Source: Thuidium tamariscinum (taxonomy: Eukaryota; Streptophyta; Bryopsida; Hypnales; Thuidiaceae). Taken from it: a DNA stretch of 64,000 nt. This document shows, one piece after another, positions 6,951 through 60,132 of this stretch. Under the pieces are notes generated by a model. The model searched no databases. It saw nothing but the letters and a program-made list of their open reading frames with translations, and was not told where the DNA came from. The position numbers were made by a program, and so were the translations under genes. The stretch is taken from the NCBI GenBank assembly GCA_947034885.2, contig OX344754.2:7075001-7139000 (forward strand), written 5' to 3'. Numbering within the stretch: position 1 is the first letter of the stretch; every line of letters begins with the position of its first letter.

Positions 6951-7179
6951 TTAATCCCTCAAGGATGGGCTATTGACCATGAAAATCATCCCTTTGATTA
7001 TGGTGAGAATCATTGACTTCAAAGAATGAAAAAGTATTCAATGGAAGTCATGTTATTGAAGAAGACCTCTCCTTTTCAGAACAAAACTACAACAATAAGT
7101 AGTTGCACATCTGTCCTACTAGAATAATTCTTTGTTACTTCCATTGGATTTTTTTTTAATGTTAGCATTCAAGGGTTAA
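6951..7179. mobile_element. 229-bp TTAA-flanked piggyBac-like MITE, copy 1
   Basis: Starts TTAATCCCTCAAGGATGG and ends ATTCAAGGGTTAA. A second copy of identical length, 229 bp, lies at 52969-53197 with the same inner sequence (AAGGATGG, then ATGAAA-TCATCC). The shared length of two independent insertions fixes both ends. Confidence 0.65.
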
Positions 7180-25442: not shown

Positions 25443-26530
25443 TTAACCCCTAAAGGACCAACATGCATTTTTTGGCAACATAGAAATTTTGGGCAGGTAC
25501 GTGTGACTGGAGATTTGCATATTTTGGGCTGAAATTTTAATAGAATGTGGGGACAAGGAATATCTTTTATATGCACAAATTTCATGGCATTTGGAAATAT
25601 GAGTCAAAAGTTATTGCATAATATGTTGTTTGTTTCTCAACTCGGGCAGTCCGGGCAGATCTGAAAAAATCACTTTTTTAAGAAATAAAAAATTTAAATT
25701 TGTTCTTCAAATTTATATATACTCAAAAAGCTTTGAATCATTGCATTTCAATAGTTGAGATGAAAGTTATGAGGCTTTTTAGTTTGCGGGCAGTTATGGA
25801 ATCCCTACACCAAAAAAAACTTTGAAGTCCTTTATTTTACTGAAATTTAAATATTTTTGAAAAAAAATAATGCTATTGGATGTAGATTGTCATAACATTC
25901 AGTAGCAAGGCTAGCATTGCCTTGGCTCTACAGTGATGGTGTGGAATATGCCACACCCAGTAGTGTTCGTAAGTAACTAATTGGTTGGGAGTGGAATATG
26001 CCACACCATCACTGTAGAGGCATGGCTTGCTACTGAATGTTATGGTTTATAACAACAATTCAACCATTTAGATTGAAATTTTTTAATTTTATAACTTATT
26101 TATTAACAATTTAGTATTTTGAATCATTCTCTACTTCTTTCTACTTACTATTTTTTTCCTATATGTTATACAACTCCAAATGATCTGAAAATTTTCATGT
26201 ATGTAGCCAACTTGCCCTGAAGAATGAATCCAAAGAAGCACAACCGTTTTGGACATTTTTTCATAATGATCTGGCTTTGTGAAGTGCAGCTGCCCGGTTT
26301 TTTGCAGGGCCAAAAAATGGATTTTTGTCACTTCAAACGCTAATATCTTGCAATCTACATGGTGGAAATTTCTGAAATTTTTCCCACATATTCTCAAACT
26401 AGAGTACTACAAGATCCTACAGTTACATGTGTCAAAAAACGATATTTTTCAAAAATTTGGTACTTGTACTAGAAATGGCAGTTTTGGAGCATTTTTGGTG
26501 AGAACATAGTCAAAGAACTTTAGGGGTTAA
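25443..26530 (+). mobile_element. TTAA element family A, copy A1 (with nested insert)
   Basis: Starts TTAACCCCTAAAGGACCAA and ends AGAACTTTAGGGGTTAA. Seven copies of the family occur in this window, about 0.92-0.94 kb when intact. A1 is 1088 bp because a 154-bp palindromic element sits inside it (25891-26044). The family carries CTCGGGCAGTCCGGGCAG-like motifs near one end and GCAGCTGC near the other. There is no transposase. Confidence 0.75.
25891..26044. mobile_element. 154-bp palindromic MITE nested in copy A1
   Basis: The tip CATAACATTCAGTAGCAAG is repeated inverted at the right end, and the arms continue with ACAGTGATGGTGTGGAATAT. Sister copies of family A (for example 44017-44938) lack it, so the insertion is younger than A1. 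The target duplication is not clear. Confidence 0.7.
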
Positions 26531-30137: not shown

Positions 30138-31078
30138 TTAACCCCTAAAGGTTTTTTACTATATTTTCACCAAAAATGCTCCAAAACTGCCATTTCTAAT
30201 ACAAGTGCAATTTTCTTTTTTTTAAAACACATTTTTTACTCATGTAACCATAGGATCTTGTAGTAAGGTGGTTTGTAAACATGTGGAAAAAATTTCAGAA
30301 ATTTCCATCGTGTAGATTGCAAGATATAAGCATTTGAATTGACAAAAATTGTTTTTTTATTCCTGCTAAAATCCGGGCAGCTGCACTTCACAAGGTCACA
30401 TTTGTGTGAAAAAAAAATTCAAAATGGTGGTTACTCTTTGAATTCATACTTCAGTGCAAGTTGGCTACATTCTCAAAAAATTTCAAACCATTTGGAATTG
30501 TACAACATATAGGAAAAAATAAGTAAGTAGAAAGAAGTAAAAAATGAGCCAAAATACTAAATTGTGAACATTTTATTCATGGAATTGAAAATTTTCAATC
30601 CCAATGGTTAAAATGTTGTAATAAACAATCTACACCTTTTGTTTTTATTTTTTTTCAAAAATATGAAAAATTGAATTAAATGAAGAATTTCAAACTTTTT
30701 TTGTACTGTAGAGATTCTGTAACTGGCCACAAACTACCCCGAACTCAAAATCTTCATAACTTTTGACTCATTGATCGGAATGGATTGATTCACAGCTTTC
30801 CATGTCTATATAAACCTAAAGAATCAATTTGAAATTTCACTTTTAAAAAAAAGTTTTTTCAGCTGCCCGGGCTGCCCGCCAAGTAAAGAAAACATCATAT
30901 CCTGCCATAACTTTTAACCGTGAAGTCAAAAGTTATGAAAATTGTCGGTCCTTAAAGTTACTCCTTGGACACACATTGTATCAAATTTTCAAAGAAAAAA
31001 AATAAAAACTCTATCCGTAGTGAGCTGCCCAAAAAATTTATAATTTCAAAAAACGATGTTCAGGGCTTTACGGGTTAA
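30138..31078 (-). mobile_element. TTAA element family A, copy A2
   Basis: Starts TTAACCCCTAAAGGTTTTTT and ends GGGCTTTACGGGTTAA; 941 bp including both TTAAs. Orientation is opposite to A1. The inner block GCAGCTGCACTTCA and the end-proximal CTGCCCG motifs are shared with the other copies. Confidence 0.72.
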
Positions 31079-31803: not shown

Positions 31804-32738
31804 TTAACCCCTAAAGTTCTTTGACTATATTTTCACCAAAAAACCTTCAAAACTACCATTTCTGACACAAGTACCAAATAATTGGAAATTATTGTTTTTA
31901 GACACATATAATTGTAGGATCTTGTAGTATGCTGGTTTGAGAAGATAAGGAAAAAAATTCAGAAATTTCTACCGTGTAGATTACAAGATATTAGTGTTCA
32001 AAGTTACAAAAATCCTTTTTTTACCACTACGAAAATCTGGGCAGCTGCACTTTACAAGCTCACATTTGCATGAAAAAAAGTCCAAAATGGTAGTGCTACT
32101 TTGGATTCATTCTTCAAGTCAAGTTGGTTACATGCTTGAAAATTTTCAAATCATTTGGAATTGTACAACATATAGGAAAAAAATAGTAACTAGAAAGAAG
32201 TAGAGAATGATTCAAAATACTAAATTGTTAAGAATTTATTTATGAAATTGAAACTTGCCAATCCCAAAGGTTCAAATGCTGTAATAAACAACCTACCCCC
32301 AATGTTTTGTTTTGTTTTTCAAAAATATTGAAAATTGAGTAAAATAAAGGATTTCAAAGTTTATTTTAGAGTAGAGAATCCATAACTACCCGCAAACTAA
32401 AACTCTTTATAACTTTTGACTCATTAGTCCAAATGGAATGATTCAAAGCTTTCCATGTATATACAAATCTATAAAACCAATTCAAAAATTTTGTTTTCAA
32501 AAAAAGTTATTTTTTCTGATTTGCCCGAACTGCCCGAGTTTGAGAAATAAACAACATATTATGCAATAACTTTTTAACCATGCAGTCAAAAGTCACAAAA
32601 ATTGTCTAGCTTTAAAGATATTCCTTGTCCACACTTTCTATTAAAGTTTGGTCCCAAAATATGAAAATCTCTAGTCACACGTACTTGCCCAAAATAGTTA
32701 TGTTGTGAAAAAAGGCATGTTGGTCCTTTAAGGGTTAA
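31804..32738 (-). mobile_element. TTAA element family A, copy A3
   Basis: Starts TTAACCCCTAAAGTTCTTTG and ends GGTCCTTTAAGGGTTAA; 935 bp. A 69-codon ORF at 31994-32203 is also found in A1 (26131-26397, minus) at about 75% identity, so it is a shared piece of the element rather than a host gene. Confidence 0.75.
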
Positions 32739-35002: not shown

Positions 35003-35934
35003 TTAACCCCTAAAGGTTTTAGACTATGTTTTCACCAAAATTGCTCTAAAACTGTCATTTTTAGGATAACTATCAAATTTTAGATAAAAAAACATTTTTA
35101 GAATAATGTAACAGTAGGATCTTAGAGTGAACTAGTTTGAGAGAATGTACAAAAAAATTCAGAAAATTCCACCATGTAGATTGCAAGATAATAGTGTTTG
35201 AAGTTACAAAAATCCCTTTTTTATCACTGCGGAAATCCGGGCAGCTGCACTTCAGAAGGCCACATTTGTATGAAAAAATATTCAAAATGGTTGTTACTCT
35301 TTAGATTCATTCTTCAATTTAGGTTGGATACATGCTCAAAAAATTTCAAATCATTTCGAATTGTACAACATGTACAAAAAAAATAGTAAGTAGAGAGATG
35401 TAGAGAATGATTCAAAACACTAAATCTTTAACAATTTATTTATTGAATTGAAAAATGCCAATCTCAATGGTTCAAATGTTGTAATAAGCATTCTACACCC
35501 AATGTTTTTTGTTTTTTTCAAAAATATTGAAAATTGAGTAAAATAAAGGACTTCAAAGTTTATTTTAGAGTAGAGAATCCATAACTACCCGCAAACTAAA
35601 ATTCTTCATAACTTTTGACTCATTAATCCAAATGGAATGATTCAAAGATTTCCACATATATATAAATCTATAAAACCAATTTCAAATTTTGGTTTCCAAA
35701 AAAAGTGATTTTTTTTATCTGCCCGAACTGCCCAAGTTGAGAAACAAACAACATATTATGCGATAACTTTTCAACCATATAGTCAAAAGTCATGAAAATT
35801 GTTGGGCTTGAAAGATAATCCTCATCCACACCTTCTATTAAATTTTGGTTCCAAAATATAGAAATCTCTAGTCACACGTACCTGCCCAAAATTGCTATGT
35901 TGCCAAAAAAGCACTTTGGTCCTTTAGGGGTTAA
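35003..35934 (-). mobile_element. TTAA element family A, copy A4
   Basis: Starts TTAACCCCTAAAGGTTTTAG and ends GGTCCTTTAGGGGTTAA; 932 bp, opposite to A1. Inner landmarks (GCAGCTGCACTTCA; CTGCCCGAACTGCCC) match A2 and A3. Confidence 0.75.
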
Positions 35935-37200: not shown

Positions 37201-37837
37201 AGGTAGGTACACCCAAAAGCACCACTTATTCATACTGTGCCTAGTTCCTGTTATTAACTAGTTCAGATTTTTATGCAGTCTTGTTGGCAAGTGAAAGCAT
37301 GTTCCAACGCACCAAAGAACGCAGGATTTGGATACTGTATGCAGAAGTTGTTAATCCCTAAACGACGGGCGGGTCACCGTGGGAGGCAGCGGCCCGGTGA
37401 ATAGTATTGATTTCTGTGCAGACCGCTCAAGCTAGTTCAATCGCAGATGTGAAATGGAACACAAATCAACAAAGGATGTAGGCCAGCAGGCAATTTACAA
37501 GAGGGGCAGTGTAAATCCGACACCCTCTTCTGAGAATTTGGGCTCCTGTAAATATATGAGTTCATTGATTGAGGATTTCCAGTGCATTGCATGATGGCAC
37601 ACAATTGTAACTTTGCTACCAGAAAAAATTCGATGAAAAACTTTGTTTTCTCCATACGGCAGACTGTTTGGAAGTCATTCAAAACCAAAAACTGGCGTGC
37701 GCGTCATTTAAGGGTTAATGGTCAAAGTCTGTTTCTGAAAGCGCCATCTACACCTTGCAAAAATGACTGATTTTGGAAATGTATGTGCACTATAGATGGC
37801 GCTTTTAGGAACAGGGCACTTTTGGGTGTACCTACCT
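37201..37837 (-). mobile_element. TA-flanked MITE (273-bp family) carrying a nested TTAA insertion
   Basis: Tips are AGGTAGGTACACCCAAAAGC and the mirror GTGTACCTACCT, flanked by TA. Total 637 bp; the nested element (360 bp) plus one TTAA copy (4 bp) accounts for 364 bp, leaving 273 bp. That is exactly the length of the sister copies at 46435-46707 and 42348-42620. Confidence 0.8.
37351..37718. mobile_element. 360-bp TTAA element nested in a MITE, with proof of TTAA duplication
   Basis: TTAA at 37351-37354 and 37715-37718 bracket a 360-bp element with ends TCCCTAAACGACG and (reverse complement) CCCTTAAATGACG. In the sister copy at 42348-42620 the same site is empty and has one TTAA (42468-42471, minus strand GTTATTAACGGTC). 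The interior is GC-richer than the host MITE and its 83-codon ORF has no domain. Confidence 0.8.
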
Positions 37838-42347: not shown

Positions 42348-42620
42348 CTGGTAGGTACACCCCAAATGGCACTTGACCTAAAAGTGCCATCTACAATGTG
42401 CATACATTTCCAAAATCAGTTAGGTACCCAGACTATAAATGGCGCTTTCAGAAACAGACTTTGACCGTTAATAACTTTTGCATATAGTATCCAAATTCTC
42501 TATTCTTTGGTGCATTGGAACATGCTTTCACTCACCAACAAGACTTTATAAAAATGTGAACAACATGATAACATCAACTAGGCACAGTAAGAATAAGTAG
42601 CACTTTTGGGTAACCATCCT
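42348..42620 (+). mobile_element. 273-bp MITE family, copy with the empty TTAA site
   Basis: Same family as 37201-37837 and 46435-46707. It holds a single TTAA at 42468-42471, at the exact point where the copy at 37201 carries the 360-bp TTAA element. Confidence 0.7.
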
Positions 42621-42650: not shown

Positions 42651-43484
42651 TTAACCCCAAAATTTCTTTATCTATGTTTTCACCAAATCCAATCCAAAAC
42701 TACCATTTTCTAACACAAGTTCCAAATTTTTGGAAAAAATTATTTTTAGACACATGTAACCATAGGATCTTGTAGTATGTTAGTTTGAGAAGATGGGAAA
42801 AAAAATTCAGAAATTTCTACCATGTCGACTACAAGATATTAGTGTTTATATTGACCAAAATCCTTTTCTTGGCCCTGCAAAAATAGGGTAGTTGTAGTTT
42901 TCAAGCTCACATTTGTATGAAAAATGTTCAAAATGGTAATGCTTCTTTGGATTCATTCTTGAAAGCAAGTTGACTATATGCTTGAAAATTTTCAAATCAT
43001 TTCAAATTGTAGAGCACATAGAAAAAAATAGTAAGTAGAAAGAAACAGAGAATGATTCAAAAAACTAAATTGTTGAGAATTTATTTGTGAAATTGAAAAT
43101 TGCCTATTCCAATTGTTTAAATGTTGTAATAAACAGTCTACATCCAATGTTTTTATTTTTTTCCAGAAATATTGAAAATTGATTTAAATAAAGAAATTCA
43201 AAGTTTATTTTTAAGTAAAAAATCCATAACTGCCAAAATAGAATGATTCAAAGCTTTCCATATATATATATATATATATCTACCCAAATTCCTCAAGTTG
43301 AGAAAGAAACAATGTATCATACAATATGTAGTCAAAAGTTATGAAAATTGTTGGGTCTTGAAGATATTCCTCATCCTGATCTTCTATTAAATTTTGGCCC
43401 CAAAACATGAAAATCTCTAGTCACATGTACCTACTCAAAATTTCTGTGTTGCCAAAAAAGGCACCTTGGTCTATTAGAGATTAA
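42651..43484 (-). mobile_element. TTAA element family A, copy A5 (deleted)
   Basis: Starts TTAACCCCAAAATTTCTTT and ends TCTATTAGAGATTAA; 834 bp, the most diverged copy, with lost sequence around 43230-43300 where an (AT)n run has grown. Opposite to A1. Confidence 0.65.
43259..43279. repeat. (AT)n microsatellite
   Basis: About ten AT dinucleotides within copy A5, at the place where other copies read TATATATAAATCTA. Likely grown from that seed. Confidence 0.7.
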
Positions 43485-44016
43485 TCAATTGAACATACTT
43501 GGAGTAAGAATATGTTGATAATAAAAAGGTTGAAAAAGATATTATATTTTTTAAGAATTTTATCCTCCAAAATAAGTTATTGTAAATTTTTTAGGTGAAG
43601 ATTTTGTTCATCCCATATAAGACATATAAGTCATCTAATTTCTAATCAAGTAATGGCTATAAAACTGAAAGTGATTCATTACTAAGGTAGAAACATCAAT
43701 AACTACTCAAATAAGCTAATTTGGAGCAAATGCTGAAGAATAAGAGCTAGTGGAAATTTTTCTTATGTCAAAAGATGGGGAAAATAGGATAGAGAATTTT
43801 CAGAATTTTTCTCTAGAAATTGAAATTATTGTGAATTTTCAAAGCCAAAAAGTATGTTGACCAATAACCAATGTCTAGAGTCTCTTCATTCTAATTAGTC
43901 TACAACTACTTTCATGCTTACTTTTTTTGGACATGCATCATAACTCTGTTAGTCCCAATTTTGAAAATGACCAAAAAAAAAACAAAAAAACCAACATTCC
44001 AAGCTTGATTTCTACC
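43485..44016. other. AT-rich intergenic DNA, nothing identified
   Basis: No gene or repeat ends recognised. Confidence 0.4.
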
Positions 44017-44938
44017 TTAACCCCTAAAGGACCAACGTGCCTTTTTGGCAACATAACTATTTTGGGCAAGTACGTGTGACTAGATATTTCCATATTTTGG
44101 GACCAAATTTTAATAGAAGGTGTGGGCGAGGAATATCTTTAAAGCCCAACAATTTTCGTGACTTTTGACTGCATGGTTTAAAAGTAATGGCATGATATGT
44201 TGTTTATTTCCCAACTCGGGCAGTTTGGGCAGATAAAAAAAATCACTTTTTTAGAAAATAAAAATTTGAAATTGGTTCAATAGATTTACATATACGTGGA
44301 AAGCTTTGAATCATTCCATTTGGACTAATGAGCCAAAAGTTATGAAGAGTTTTAGTTTGTGGGTAGTTATAGATTCCCTACTCTAAAATAAAATTTGAAG
44401 TCCTTTATTTTACTCAATTTTCAATATTTTTGGAAAAAACATTGGGCATAGGTTGTTTATTACAACATTTGAACCATTGGGATTGGCAAGTTTCAATTTC
44501 ACAAATAAATTTTTAACAATTTAGTATTTTTAATCATTCTCTACTTCTTTTTAATTCCGATTTTTTCTATATATTGTGTAATTCCAAATGATTTGAAATT
44601 TTTTGAGCATCTAGCCAACTTGCCTTGGAGAATGAATCCAAAGAAGCACTACCATTTTGGACTCTTTTTCATGCAAATGTGAGCTTGTAAAGTGCAGCTG
44701 CCCGGATTTTCGTAGTGATAAAAAAAGGATTTTTGTAACTTCAAACACTAATATCTTGTAATCCACACGGTAAAAATTTCTGAAATTTTTTCTTCATCTT
44801 CTCAAACCTGAATACTACAAGATCCTACGGTTATATGTGGCCAAAAACAATATTTTCCAAATGTTTGGTACTTGTGTTAGAAATGGCAGTTTTGGAGGGT
44901 TTTTGGTGAAAACATAGTCAAAGAACTTTAAGGGTTAA
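44017..44938 (+). mobile_element. TTAA element family A, copy A6
   Basis: Starts TTAACCCCTAAAGGACCAA and ends AGAACTTTAAGGGTTAA; 922 bp, same orientation as A1. It serves as the empty-site comparison for the insert at 25891-26044. Confidence 0.75.
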
Positions 44939-46434: not shown

Positions 46435-46707
46435 AGGTAGGTACACCCAAAAGCGCCCTGTTTCTTAAACCGCCATCTACAGTGCACATACATTTTCAAA
46501 ATCAGTCATGTTCGCAGGCTGTAGATGGCGGTTTCAGAAACACACTTTGACTGTGAATAACTTTTGCATACGGTGTCCAAATCCTGCGTTCTTTGGTGCG
46601 TTGGAACACGCTTTCACTTGGCCACAAGACTGTATAAAAATCTGAACTAGCTAATAACAGGAACTAGGCACAGTATGAAAAACTGGCGCTTTTGGGTGTA
46701 CCCACCT
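46435..46707 (+). mobile_element. 273-bp TA-flanked MITE, intact copy
   Basis: Tips AGGTAGGTACACCCAAAAGC and (reverse complement) AGGTGGGTACACCCAAAAGC; TA both sides. An internal palindrome CGCCATCTACAG...CTGTAGATGGCG lies near the left end. It is the best preserved of the three copies. Confidence 0.8.
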
Positions 46708-48426: not shown

Positions 48427-48563
48427 AGGTAGTTTGCTCTAAAAGCGATTGGGTTCTAAATGCGACCTCTATTTAGGAACCAGTGACATGTTATTTGAAA
48501 TGTGTACTTTTGTCTATGATGAGTTAGTTAGGCTTGATGGGTTGCTTTTAGAGCAAACTGACT
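48427..48563. mobile_element. 137-bp TA-flanked MITE
   Basis: The left end AGGTAGTTTGCTCTAAAAGC pairs with GCTTTTAGAGCAAACTGACT, TA on both sides. Its right TA lies within the TTAA that starts the next element, so that TTAA element inserted right at its border. Confidence 0.6.
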
Positions 48564-49734
48564 TAACCCCTAACTGTTCAATCGACCATATACGGTGGAA
48601 ACACCCAAAACCATGCAAATAAGGAATTCAACATAGTTCGAGGCAATGTTTTCTAATAATGATATTTTTCTAGTATTAGCGAGTGAAAATCATGAATATT
48701 CAAAAAAAAAATCCGATACAGTATGTAATTTCTACAAATTTTCAAAGTGTTGGCTCCCTAGACCTGTGAAACCATTTGCTAGGTGCCCCCCAAACTGAAC
48801 CCTACAAAAATCAGCACTCAGCCAACTAGATTCTCCTATATGTCCTTCAACTGTGTCAGCTAATTATAATTACACATGTGGTGAACACATTAAGGAAAGT
48901 CTACTGACACAATTGAGTGAATCTATAGTCCATTCCAAGGAACAAGTGCGGGAATGGGTGTTTTGCCCTTATGGTTGATCTGAAATTTCAAGCCATTTTT
49001 GAATGGGCAGTTAAATTTTTGTGACCATTTAAAAAAAAGTTCAAGCAATTTTAAGGATTAACTATTGAAAACTTTCATTTTTCACTGAAAAAAGTACATA
49101 TTTGATTATTGAGATGTCTTCAAAGGCATACATGTACCATAAGTGAAGTGTAAAGCTTGCCAATTTTATTTTATTTCCTAGCTTTATGCAATTTCACTTA
49201 ATTTGATATCTAAAAAATTGTATATATCCATTTGCTTTGAAAATGGTCCTAATGGAAAGAGGAAAGTGTTTTCATGATATTCACCATTGAAAATTTAAAC
49301 ATACAACTATTAATTTGGAGTTATTTGCAATATCTCCTTATAAAAATAATTGCATTTCAAGAATTGCAAGGTGGATTGTGTAATGAATTTAATAGCTTTT
49401 CATGTGAAATTAAGTTTTTTAAAAGTGCATATTAGTGTGATAATACTTTTTGTAGTTGTTCATGTCACCTCCAATCTCAAAAAGAATTTATATGCAAATT
49501 TGAGAAACATTGTGGGAAAAGGCAACATACTAAATATAGAAAATGTAATCTTCTCTTGTTATAATCTCACAACTTCAATGCAATTTTGTGCTCACTAATA
49601 AATAAGCTTTTTAAACATCTATGCGGTTAGATTTTGTAAAGAAATCAATTTGCTTCACTAGGGATGACTACAAGTCCATGCACTTTATTCATTGTCAAAA
49701 CACGCTTGAAAAGGCTTGGGCATTTAGGGGTTAA
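48563..49734 (+). mobile_element. TTAA element with nested MITE, 1172 bp
   Basis: Starts TTAACCCCTAACTGTTC and ends GGGCATTTAGGGGTTAA. A separate MITE (48593-48969) sits inside near the left end. The right part (about 49005-49733) recurs as a direct copy at 49790-50554. Confidence 0.6.
48593..48969 (+). mobile_element. 377-bp TA-flanked MITE nested in the TTAA element
   Basis: Ends CGGTGGAAACACCCA and (reverse complement) AGGGCAAAACACCCA; TA at 48591-48592 and 48970-48971. The inverted sister copy is at 36328-36715. Confidence 0.6.
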
Positions 49735-50702: not shown

Positions 50703-51642
50703 TTAACCCCTAAAGGACCAAAGTGCATTTTTTGGCAACATAGCGATTTTGGGCAAGTACCTGTGACTAGAGATTTCAATGTTTTGGAATACAAACTTTA
50801 ATAGAAGGTGTGGACAAAGAATATCTTCAAAGCCCAACAATTTTTGTGACTTTTGACTACATGATTGAAAAGTTATTGTATAATATGTTGTTTGTTTTTC
50901 AACTTGGGCAGTTTGGGCAAATTAAAAAAATCAATTTTTTTGGAAATAAAAATTTGAAATTGGTTTTATAGATTTATATATACGCGGAAAGCTTTGAATC
51001 ATTCCATTTGGATTAATGAGTCAAAAGTTATGAAGAATTTTAGTTTCTAGGTAGTTATGGATTCTCTACACTAAAAAAAAACTTTGAAGTCCTTTAGTTT
51101 ACTCAATTTTCAATATTTCTGAAAAAGAATAAAAAAATTGGGTGTTGATTGTTTACTACAACATTTGAAGCATTGCAATTGGCATTTTTCAATTCAAGAA
51201 ATAAATTGTTAACATTTTAGTATTTTGATTAATTTTCTATGTACTTCTTTCTAAATACTATTTTTTTTGTATATGTTGTACAATTCCAAATGATTTAAGA
51301 ATTTTCAATCATGTATCGAGCTTGAATTGAAGAATGAATCCAAAGAGTAACAACCATTTTCAAAAAAATTTCATACAAATGTGACCTTCTAAATTGCAAC
51401 TGCTCGGATTTTCGTTGTGGTAAAAAAAGGACTTTTGCAACTTCAAACACTAATATCTTGCAATCTACATAGTGAAACTTTCTGAAATTTTTCCTACATC
51501 TTCTCAAACTAGTGCACTAAAAGATCCTATGGTTATATTATTCCAAACATGTTTTCTTTTTCTAAAATTTGGTAGTTGTCCTAGAAATGATAGTTTTGGA
51601 ATAGTTTTGGTGAAAACATAGTCAAAAACCTTTAGGAGTTAA
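50703..51642 (+). mobile_element. TTAA element family A, copy A7
   Basis: Starts TTAACCCCTAAAGGACCAA and ends AAACCTTTAGGAGTTAA; 940 bp, same orientation as A1 and A6. Confidence 0.75.
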
Positions 51643-59330: not shown

Positions 59331-60132
59331 GCCGAGGCTTGAACAAGACAGTGCTGTTAATTGTTGTCTCGAGTGGATTACGATCGAGGCAGCAAGTGCT
59401 ACTCTGAGACTGATATTGGCAAACGAATTAGCTTGTCAAGTTTGTGGATGTTGGAAGCCGGGTCACTCAACCTTGTAACTACTCTTTTTTGCTTGGAAAG
59501 TCTCGGTGATCGATCGAATGATTGAAACCGGAGTTTCAACATGCAAAGATCGACACCATTCAGCAAGATGTACAGGATGTCCCAATTGGGAAATATATCT
59601 CACGGATGTCTTTACCACAATTAAAGTTGGAATATGTATCCATTTGTTTGAGACTCGATGTATATATATCAGTCACTTATCGTTACTTCATATACTGGAG
59701 TGGAGTGCTCTGGATACTGGACGTATTGTGCCTTGTTTCAAAAAAATGCAAAATACTCATTGAAAGTCAAAGGACTCTCTTGTTCAGCGACCAAAATATG
59801 GTCGGGGTGAACTGGCCTCCTCGCTCGGCCACACCAAGTCATTTCAGGGATGCAAGTAAAAATAAAAGCCCCCTATGTACACCAAGTCATTTCAGGGGTG
59901 CAAGTACAAAATAAAAGCCCCCTATGTGGGGCTTGATTAATTTACCTCATACACCTCTCCTAACAAATTTGGGGTCTCTGTTTGCAAATATGAATTCAGA
60001 ATTTGCAAATTTTATCATGCGTGGAAAATGAAAAATTTCAGCGTTTTCCCAAGTGATTCTCTCTCATTCAACGACCAGAAAATGGCCTCTGCATCATTTA
60101 TCGGTTAAAAAATAAATTCACAAGTGCATTGT
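59331..60132. other. Intergenic with a 48-bp tandem duplication
   Basis: 59831-59878 and 59879-59927 are direct copies (ACACCAAGTCATTTCAGGG...AAAAGCCCCCTATGT). At 60085-60106 a GACCAGAAAATGGC...TTATCGGTTAA motif recalls the tip and inner palindrome of the TTAA element at 162-1005, but no left end was found. Confidence 0.45.

Follow-up and report, generated by a model that had tools for sequence, protein, structure and literature searches.

A TTAA-flanked miniature element, most probably of the piggyBac superfamily, nested in an older MITE of a plant genome

Description of the locus

The window, that is, the whole stretch of 64,000 nucleotides that was analysed, belongs to a genome of 363 Mb in 19 contigs. 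Encoded in it are a biotin carboxylase domain and a phospholipase D; among solved structures, the latter is closest to phospholipase D alpha 1 (6kz8, E 1.5e-69), presumably the Arabidopsis enzyme. Six contig ends were read; three carried long TTTAGGG arrays, one a short run, one none, and one was N. These telomere arrays, together with the phospholipase D alpha, make a green plant the likely source of the DNA.

At positions 37201-37837 the window holds a MITE that is interrupted by a second, TTAA-bordered insert. The features of this locus, with the evidence for each in brackets, are as follows.

37201..37837, minus strand: host MITE, 273 bp long once the insert is removed, member of a TA-flanked family with tips AGGTAGGTACACCC (sister alignment, family search)
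37351..37354, no strand: TTAA target site, left copy (read in the window, sister alignment, copy comparison)
37355..37714, plus strand: 360-bp non-autonomous MITE, most probably of piggyBac type (42 genomic matches; 32 full-length copies aligned)
37355..37370, plus strand: terminal inverted repeat of the left end (majority of 32 copies, CCCCTAAACGACGGGC; similar to the traced transposase elements at their 3' ends)
37699..37714, minus strand: terminal inverted repeat of the right end (majority of 32 copies, in inward reading, CCCTTAAACGACGCGC; similar to the traced transposase elements at their 5' ends)
37715..37718, no strand: TTAA target site, right copy (read in the window, sister alignment, copy comparison)
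42348..42620, plus strand: sister of the host MITE in which the site is empty, a single TTAA at 42468-42471 (alignment)
46435..46707, plus strand: sister of the host MITE without the insert, TGAA at 46554-46557 (alignment)

The original prediction had read the 637-bp MITE as a 273-bp element enlarged by 364 bp, a 360-bp insert plus four bases, and its coordinates proved exact. When 364 bp were removed from 37201-37837, the remaining 273 bp aligned end to end with both sisters, in reverse orientation, and positions 37351-37718 consist of TTAA, the 360-bp insert and TTAA, nested in the host MITE. The empty site claimed for the sister at 42348 was likewise seen, with its single TTAA at the homologous point. 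Alignment of the three copies additionally showed TGAA in the sister at 46435, which was absent from that prediction.

Sisters that cover the insertion point in three further loci (L004, L107 and L078) all read TTAA there; two degenerate sister fragments in L094 do not, and a fragment in L058 stops short of the point. A genome search with the outer MITE returned 4,325 loose candidates, indicating a very large family. Forty of these were scored and 12 loci were returned, one of them being the window copy (L108). In the other 11 loci the first-listed match reads TTAA in nine and CTAA in two (L110 and L118), while two extra matches in those loci read TTAA in one case and not in the other. Of the 13 matches besides L108, 12 display TA on either side, the right flank of the 13th not being displayed. 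The TA flanks and the tips AGGTAGGTACACCC suggest that the outer element is a MITE of the Tc1/mariner type.

Copies, borders and ends of the insert

The 368-bp query composed of the insert and both TTAAs gave 42 matches in the genome. Copies were read at 40 loci (L001-L040), of which 32 are full length; the other eight (L013, L014, L018, L021, L030, L035, L036 and L040), each with one end absent, broken or interrupted, are not part of the counts. TTAA stands on both sides of 29 of the 32 full-length copies, the exceptions being L006 (TTAA/CTAA), L007 (TTGA/TCAA) and L020 (CTAA/TTAA). The six bases outside the TTAA, on either side, have nothing in common, any base being found in at most 16 of the 32 copies. 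The duplication of TTAA on insertion, which had been claimed from the window, is borne out by these borders and by the empty sites described above.

In place of transposition, the 364-bp difference could be ascribed to gene conversion or to a simple deletion from the sisters, as the insert is present in one of the three window MITE copies. Such an origin is extremely improbable, considering that the 32 full-length insert copies have the same borders and unrelated flanks, and that most other sisters read are uninterrupted sequence with TTAA.

In the full-length copy L007, the flanks TTGA and TCAA are reverse complements of each other and not a direct repeat.

The 32 copies differ from their majority sequence by 0.033 to 0.225 substitutions per site (0.079 for the window copy), and the family has thus spread over a long time. 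Both tips of the majority sequence are CCCYTAAACGACG; the inverted repeats are short and start with CCC, unlike the left tip of the window copy, which starts with TCCC. Past its inverted repeat the insert sequence is asymmetric. The 24-bp left end, with up to two mismatches, was found at 179 places in the genome and the reversed control pattern at none, which excludes chance. These 179 places include related MITE families: when 20 further end sites were read, a right end was present within 600 bp in 13, giving a group of related MITE families of 230-426 bp with TTAA at both ends, and none was present within that distance in seven.

Transposase genes of the genome

A search of the genome with the profile PF13843 gave 659 loose candidates, 116 of which were scored. 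All 116 are above the curated cut-off of Pfam (E 5.7e-80 to 1.4e-70), and they are placed on C1 to C10, whereas none of the 14 control genomes had a PF13843 match. Thirty transposase loci form 14 groups at 80%, eight at 60% and three at 45% amino-acid identity (single linkage), the three clades among these 30 loci being 36-45% identical to one another. The window was compared with 10 of the transposases and no match was obtained.

The protein P0001, from L053, matched only PF13843 in Pfam (5.5e-79; E up to 0.001). Among solved structures it matched piggyBat (9c0f, E 3e-27) and Trichoplusia ni piggyBac (6x67, E 9.5e-23). In the alignment with 6x67, its residues D643, D748 and D864 fall opposite the catalytic aspartates of the T. 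ni protein, which are D268, D346 and D447 according to the accessible part of PMC7351741. Inspection by eye suggests a Cys-rich tail in P0001, and likewise among the longest frames of the loci (21 of 30); Pfam gave no zinc-binding family for P0001.

One transposase family is represented by 11 copies (L052-L062) at 11 different sites. Compared with L053, two substitutions were detected over 11 x 3,984 bp, one in L052 and one in L055. The copies end in GTTTCAGGG followed by TTAA and then by an individual flank each; the opposite end, read in L052 and L053, is TTAA followed by CCCCTAAACGCC. These two copies differ at two sites over the full 5,096 bp, and the stop-to-stop frame of the family has 1,023 amino acids. 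Near identity at scattered sites points to recent transposition, and this 5.1-kb family is thus judged, from the identity of its copies, to have transposed recently.

Relationship between the insert and the transposase elements

Six elements of one clade, clade A, were traced to both ends (L041, L043, L045, L051, L053 and L066). They are 4,896-5,152 bp long, and each has CCC...GGG tips directly between two TTAAs. An initial scan for element ends in 1.5-kb flanks of the transposases found none because the elements are longer. Using the majority ends of the 32 insert copies as query, the right end of the insert scored 21-22 of 30 bases against the 5' ends of the six elements. The left end scored 19-24 of 30 against their 3' ends, the weakest left-end scores (19) being those of L041 and L043. 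The clade-A elements are, moreover, asymmetric in the same sense as the insert.

As a yardstick, 926 TTAA positions of the window (both strands, every site counted twice) were scored with the insert's own ends excluded; the best left score was 18 and the best right score 22. The latter belongs to position 60108, which resembles an old piggyBac end, and several other top scorers are tips of the second TTAA-flanked family described below. Against a background of 18, left-end scores of 19 alone prove little; as far as sequence comparison goes, the strength of the link is that both ends of six elements agree in the same sense.

The original prediction had proposed a search for a DDD piggyBac transposase with matching ends. 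Elements with PF13843 transposases and similar ends were found; no element combining identical ends with a transposase was found among the end sites and transposases listed. By eye, none of the 100 end sites listed (of 179) lies within 6 kb of any of the 116 transposase matches listed. Four of the seven end sites in which a right end was absent within 600 bp were extended by 4.5-4.6 kb; they had no match to P0001, and a nearby right end appeared in two of them.

Given this lack of an identical-ended partner, it deserves to be weighed whether the mobilising piggyBac transposase came from outside clade A, either from one of the genome's other clades or from an element now extinct. L063 and L069, elements of the two other clades, also bear in common the tips CCCCTAAACGCC and CCCCTCAACGCC. 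On the other hand, the 3' ends of these two elements agree with the left end of the insert in 15 of 30 bases, against 19-24 in the six clade-A elements, and we consider a source outside clade A unlikely, though well within consideration.

The TTAA duplication had originally been offered as direct proof of piggyBac. TTAA alone does not carry the assignment, since elements of the Kolobok superfamily duplicate TTAA too, according to the accessible text of PMC9587614. The assignment to piggyBac itself was upheld, because the insert has CCC...GGG tips and the same genome contains transposase elements with both ends similar. Kolobok tips are described in the same text as 5'-RR...YY-3', a pattern not found in the insert, and the elements with ends similar to those of the insert carry a PF13843 piggyBac transposase. 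A Kolobok MITE is therefore very improbable and was set aside.

The insert is thus interpreted, with a probability of roughly 95%, as a non-coding miniature element belonging to the piggyBac superfamily and mobilised by a transposase encoded elsewhere in the genome. A piggyBac transposase from elsewhere in the genome would bind its two ends, excise it and join it to a TTAA, which would then stand on both sides; the TTAA used here would have lain within the older TA-flanked MITE. The likeliest source of the transposase would be the clade-A elements of about 5 kb, acting in trans. By analogy with insect piggyBac, a hairpin intermediate and seamless excision may be expected; seamless excision through a TTAA hairpin is described for T. 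ni piggyBac in the accessible part of PMC7351741.

Comparison with known systems

The elements of this genome resemble T. ni piggyBac and piggyBat in having CCC tips between two TTAAs, the DDD set of catalytic residues and PF13843; the Cys-rich C-terminal tail of those two systems may have a counterpart in the tail seen by eye in P0001. They differ from them in the plant host and in the presence of three clades that are 36-45% identical. Insect TTAA MITEs are short, non-coding, flanked by TTAA and present in many copies, like the insert. The same is true of the PiggyBac MITE class listed for angiosperms in the available part of PMC10004981. In contrast to both groups of MITEs, transposase elements with similar ends were found here in the same genome. 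For beetle piggyBac elements, the accessible text of PMC12732532 reports prevailing CCCT-type tips and sizes of 2,074-3,465 bp and 500-725 amino acids, as compared with 4.9-5.15 kb in the six traced elements and a frame of 1,023 amino acids in the 11-copy family.

The original statement that reports of piggyBac in land plants are few is fair but incomplete. As far as their accessible portions go, PMC4438587 includes piggyBac among the superfamilies found in all groups, land plants among them, PMC6890710 lists it in a fern and PMC10004981 as a MITE class in angiosperms, while PMC12732532 mentions occasional occurrences in plants and limited study there. In the accessible portions of the open-licence literature searched, no account was found of a native piggyBac, be it intact or active, in mosses or any other land plants. 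The kind of element is already known, piggyBac in land plants having been published; what stands out is its number, diversity and freshness in one plant genome.

We would give even odds to a broader proposal, namely that this is a plant genome in which native piggyBac is mobile now, with several deep transposase clades, a fresh burst of one full-length family or more, and TTAA MITEs mobilised in trans in swarms, and in which piggyBac is a main shaper of the genome. PiggyBac is widely used as a genetic tool, and its natural history is drawn mostly from animals. With at least 116 transposase matches, 30 loci read that fall into three deep clades, and near-identical full-length copies, the life and control of piggyBac in plants could be studied here, and such a genome would supply transposases accustomed to plant cells.

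Other TTAA-flanked elements

A second TTAA-flanked family, with tips CCCCTAAAGGACC...CTTTAGGGG (also given as CCCCTAAAGGACCAA...CTTTAGGGG), has seven copies in the window, at the following positions.

25443-26530
30138-31078
31804-32738
35003-35934
42651-43484
44017-44938
50703-51642

The copies are 834-1,088 bp long, 73-89% identical to the copy at 44017, and occupy about one tenth of the window. TTAA is present at both ends in six of them; 42651-43484 was looked at on one end. This is probably another non-autonomous family of piggyBac type. Four TTAA-flanked pairs of inverted repeats were detected in the window, compared with none in nine and one in the tenth of 10 Markov-shuffled controls. 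The pair 42651-44938 was rejected as a single element, as it joins the ends of two different elements.

A sequence of 1,172 bp at 48563-49734 lies between a TTAA followed by CCCCTAACTGTTCA and a tip CCCCTAAATGCCCA, and is perhaps an older element of piggyBac type. TTAA followed by CC, like decayed piggyBac tips, was also observed at 162 and 39984 (plus strand) and at 7179, 8803 and 60108 (minus strand).

The right inverted repeat of the insert contains a TTAA, and at this TTAA it is broken in L014 and L018 by a nested TTAA-flanked element of 221 and 211 bp, respectively, in opposite orientations. The element of L018 has one tip 10 bp shorter than that of L014, yet TTAA directly adjoins it, and one of its borders is thus not a clean CCC end. 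L006 and L008 adjoin an element of yet another kind, which has the tips CCCTTGAA and likewise lies between TTAAs.

The uniform end TTAACCCCTAAACGACGAGCCGGT accounts for 32 of the 100 end sites listed (of 179). Where such sites were read (L085-L088), the elements are 230-242 bp long; they are perhaps a young MITE burst. The same MITE end occurs four times on C3, at 40728793, 40750088, 40771383 and 40792678, in steps of exactly 21,295 bp, which suggests that a 21-kb segment is repeated in tandem, or else that the assembly has produced the pattern.
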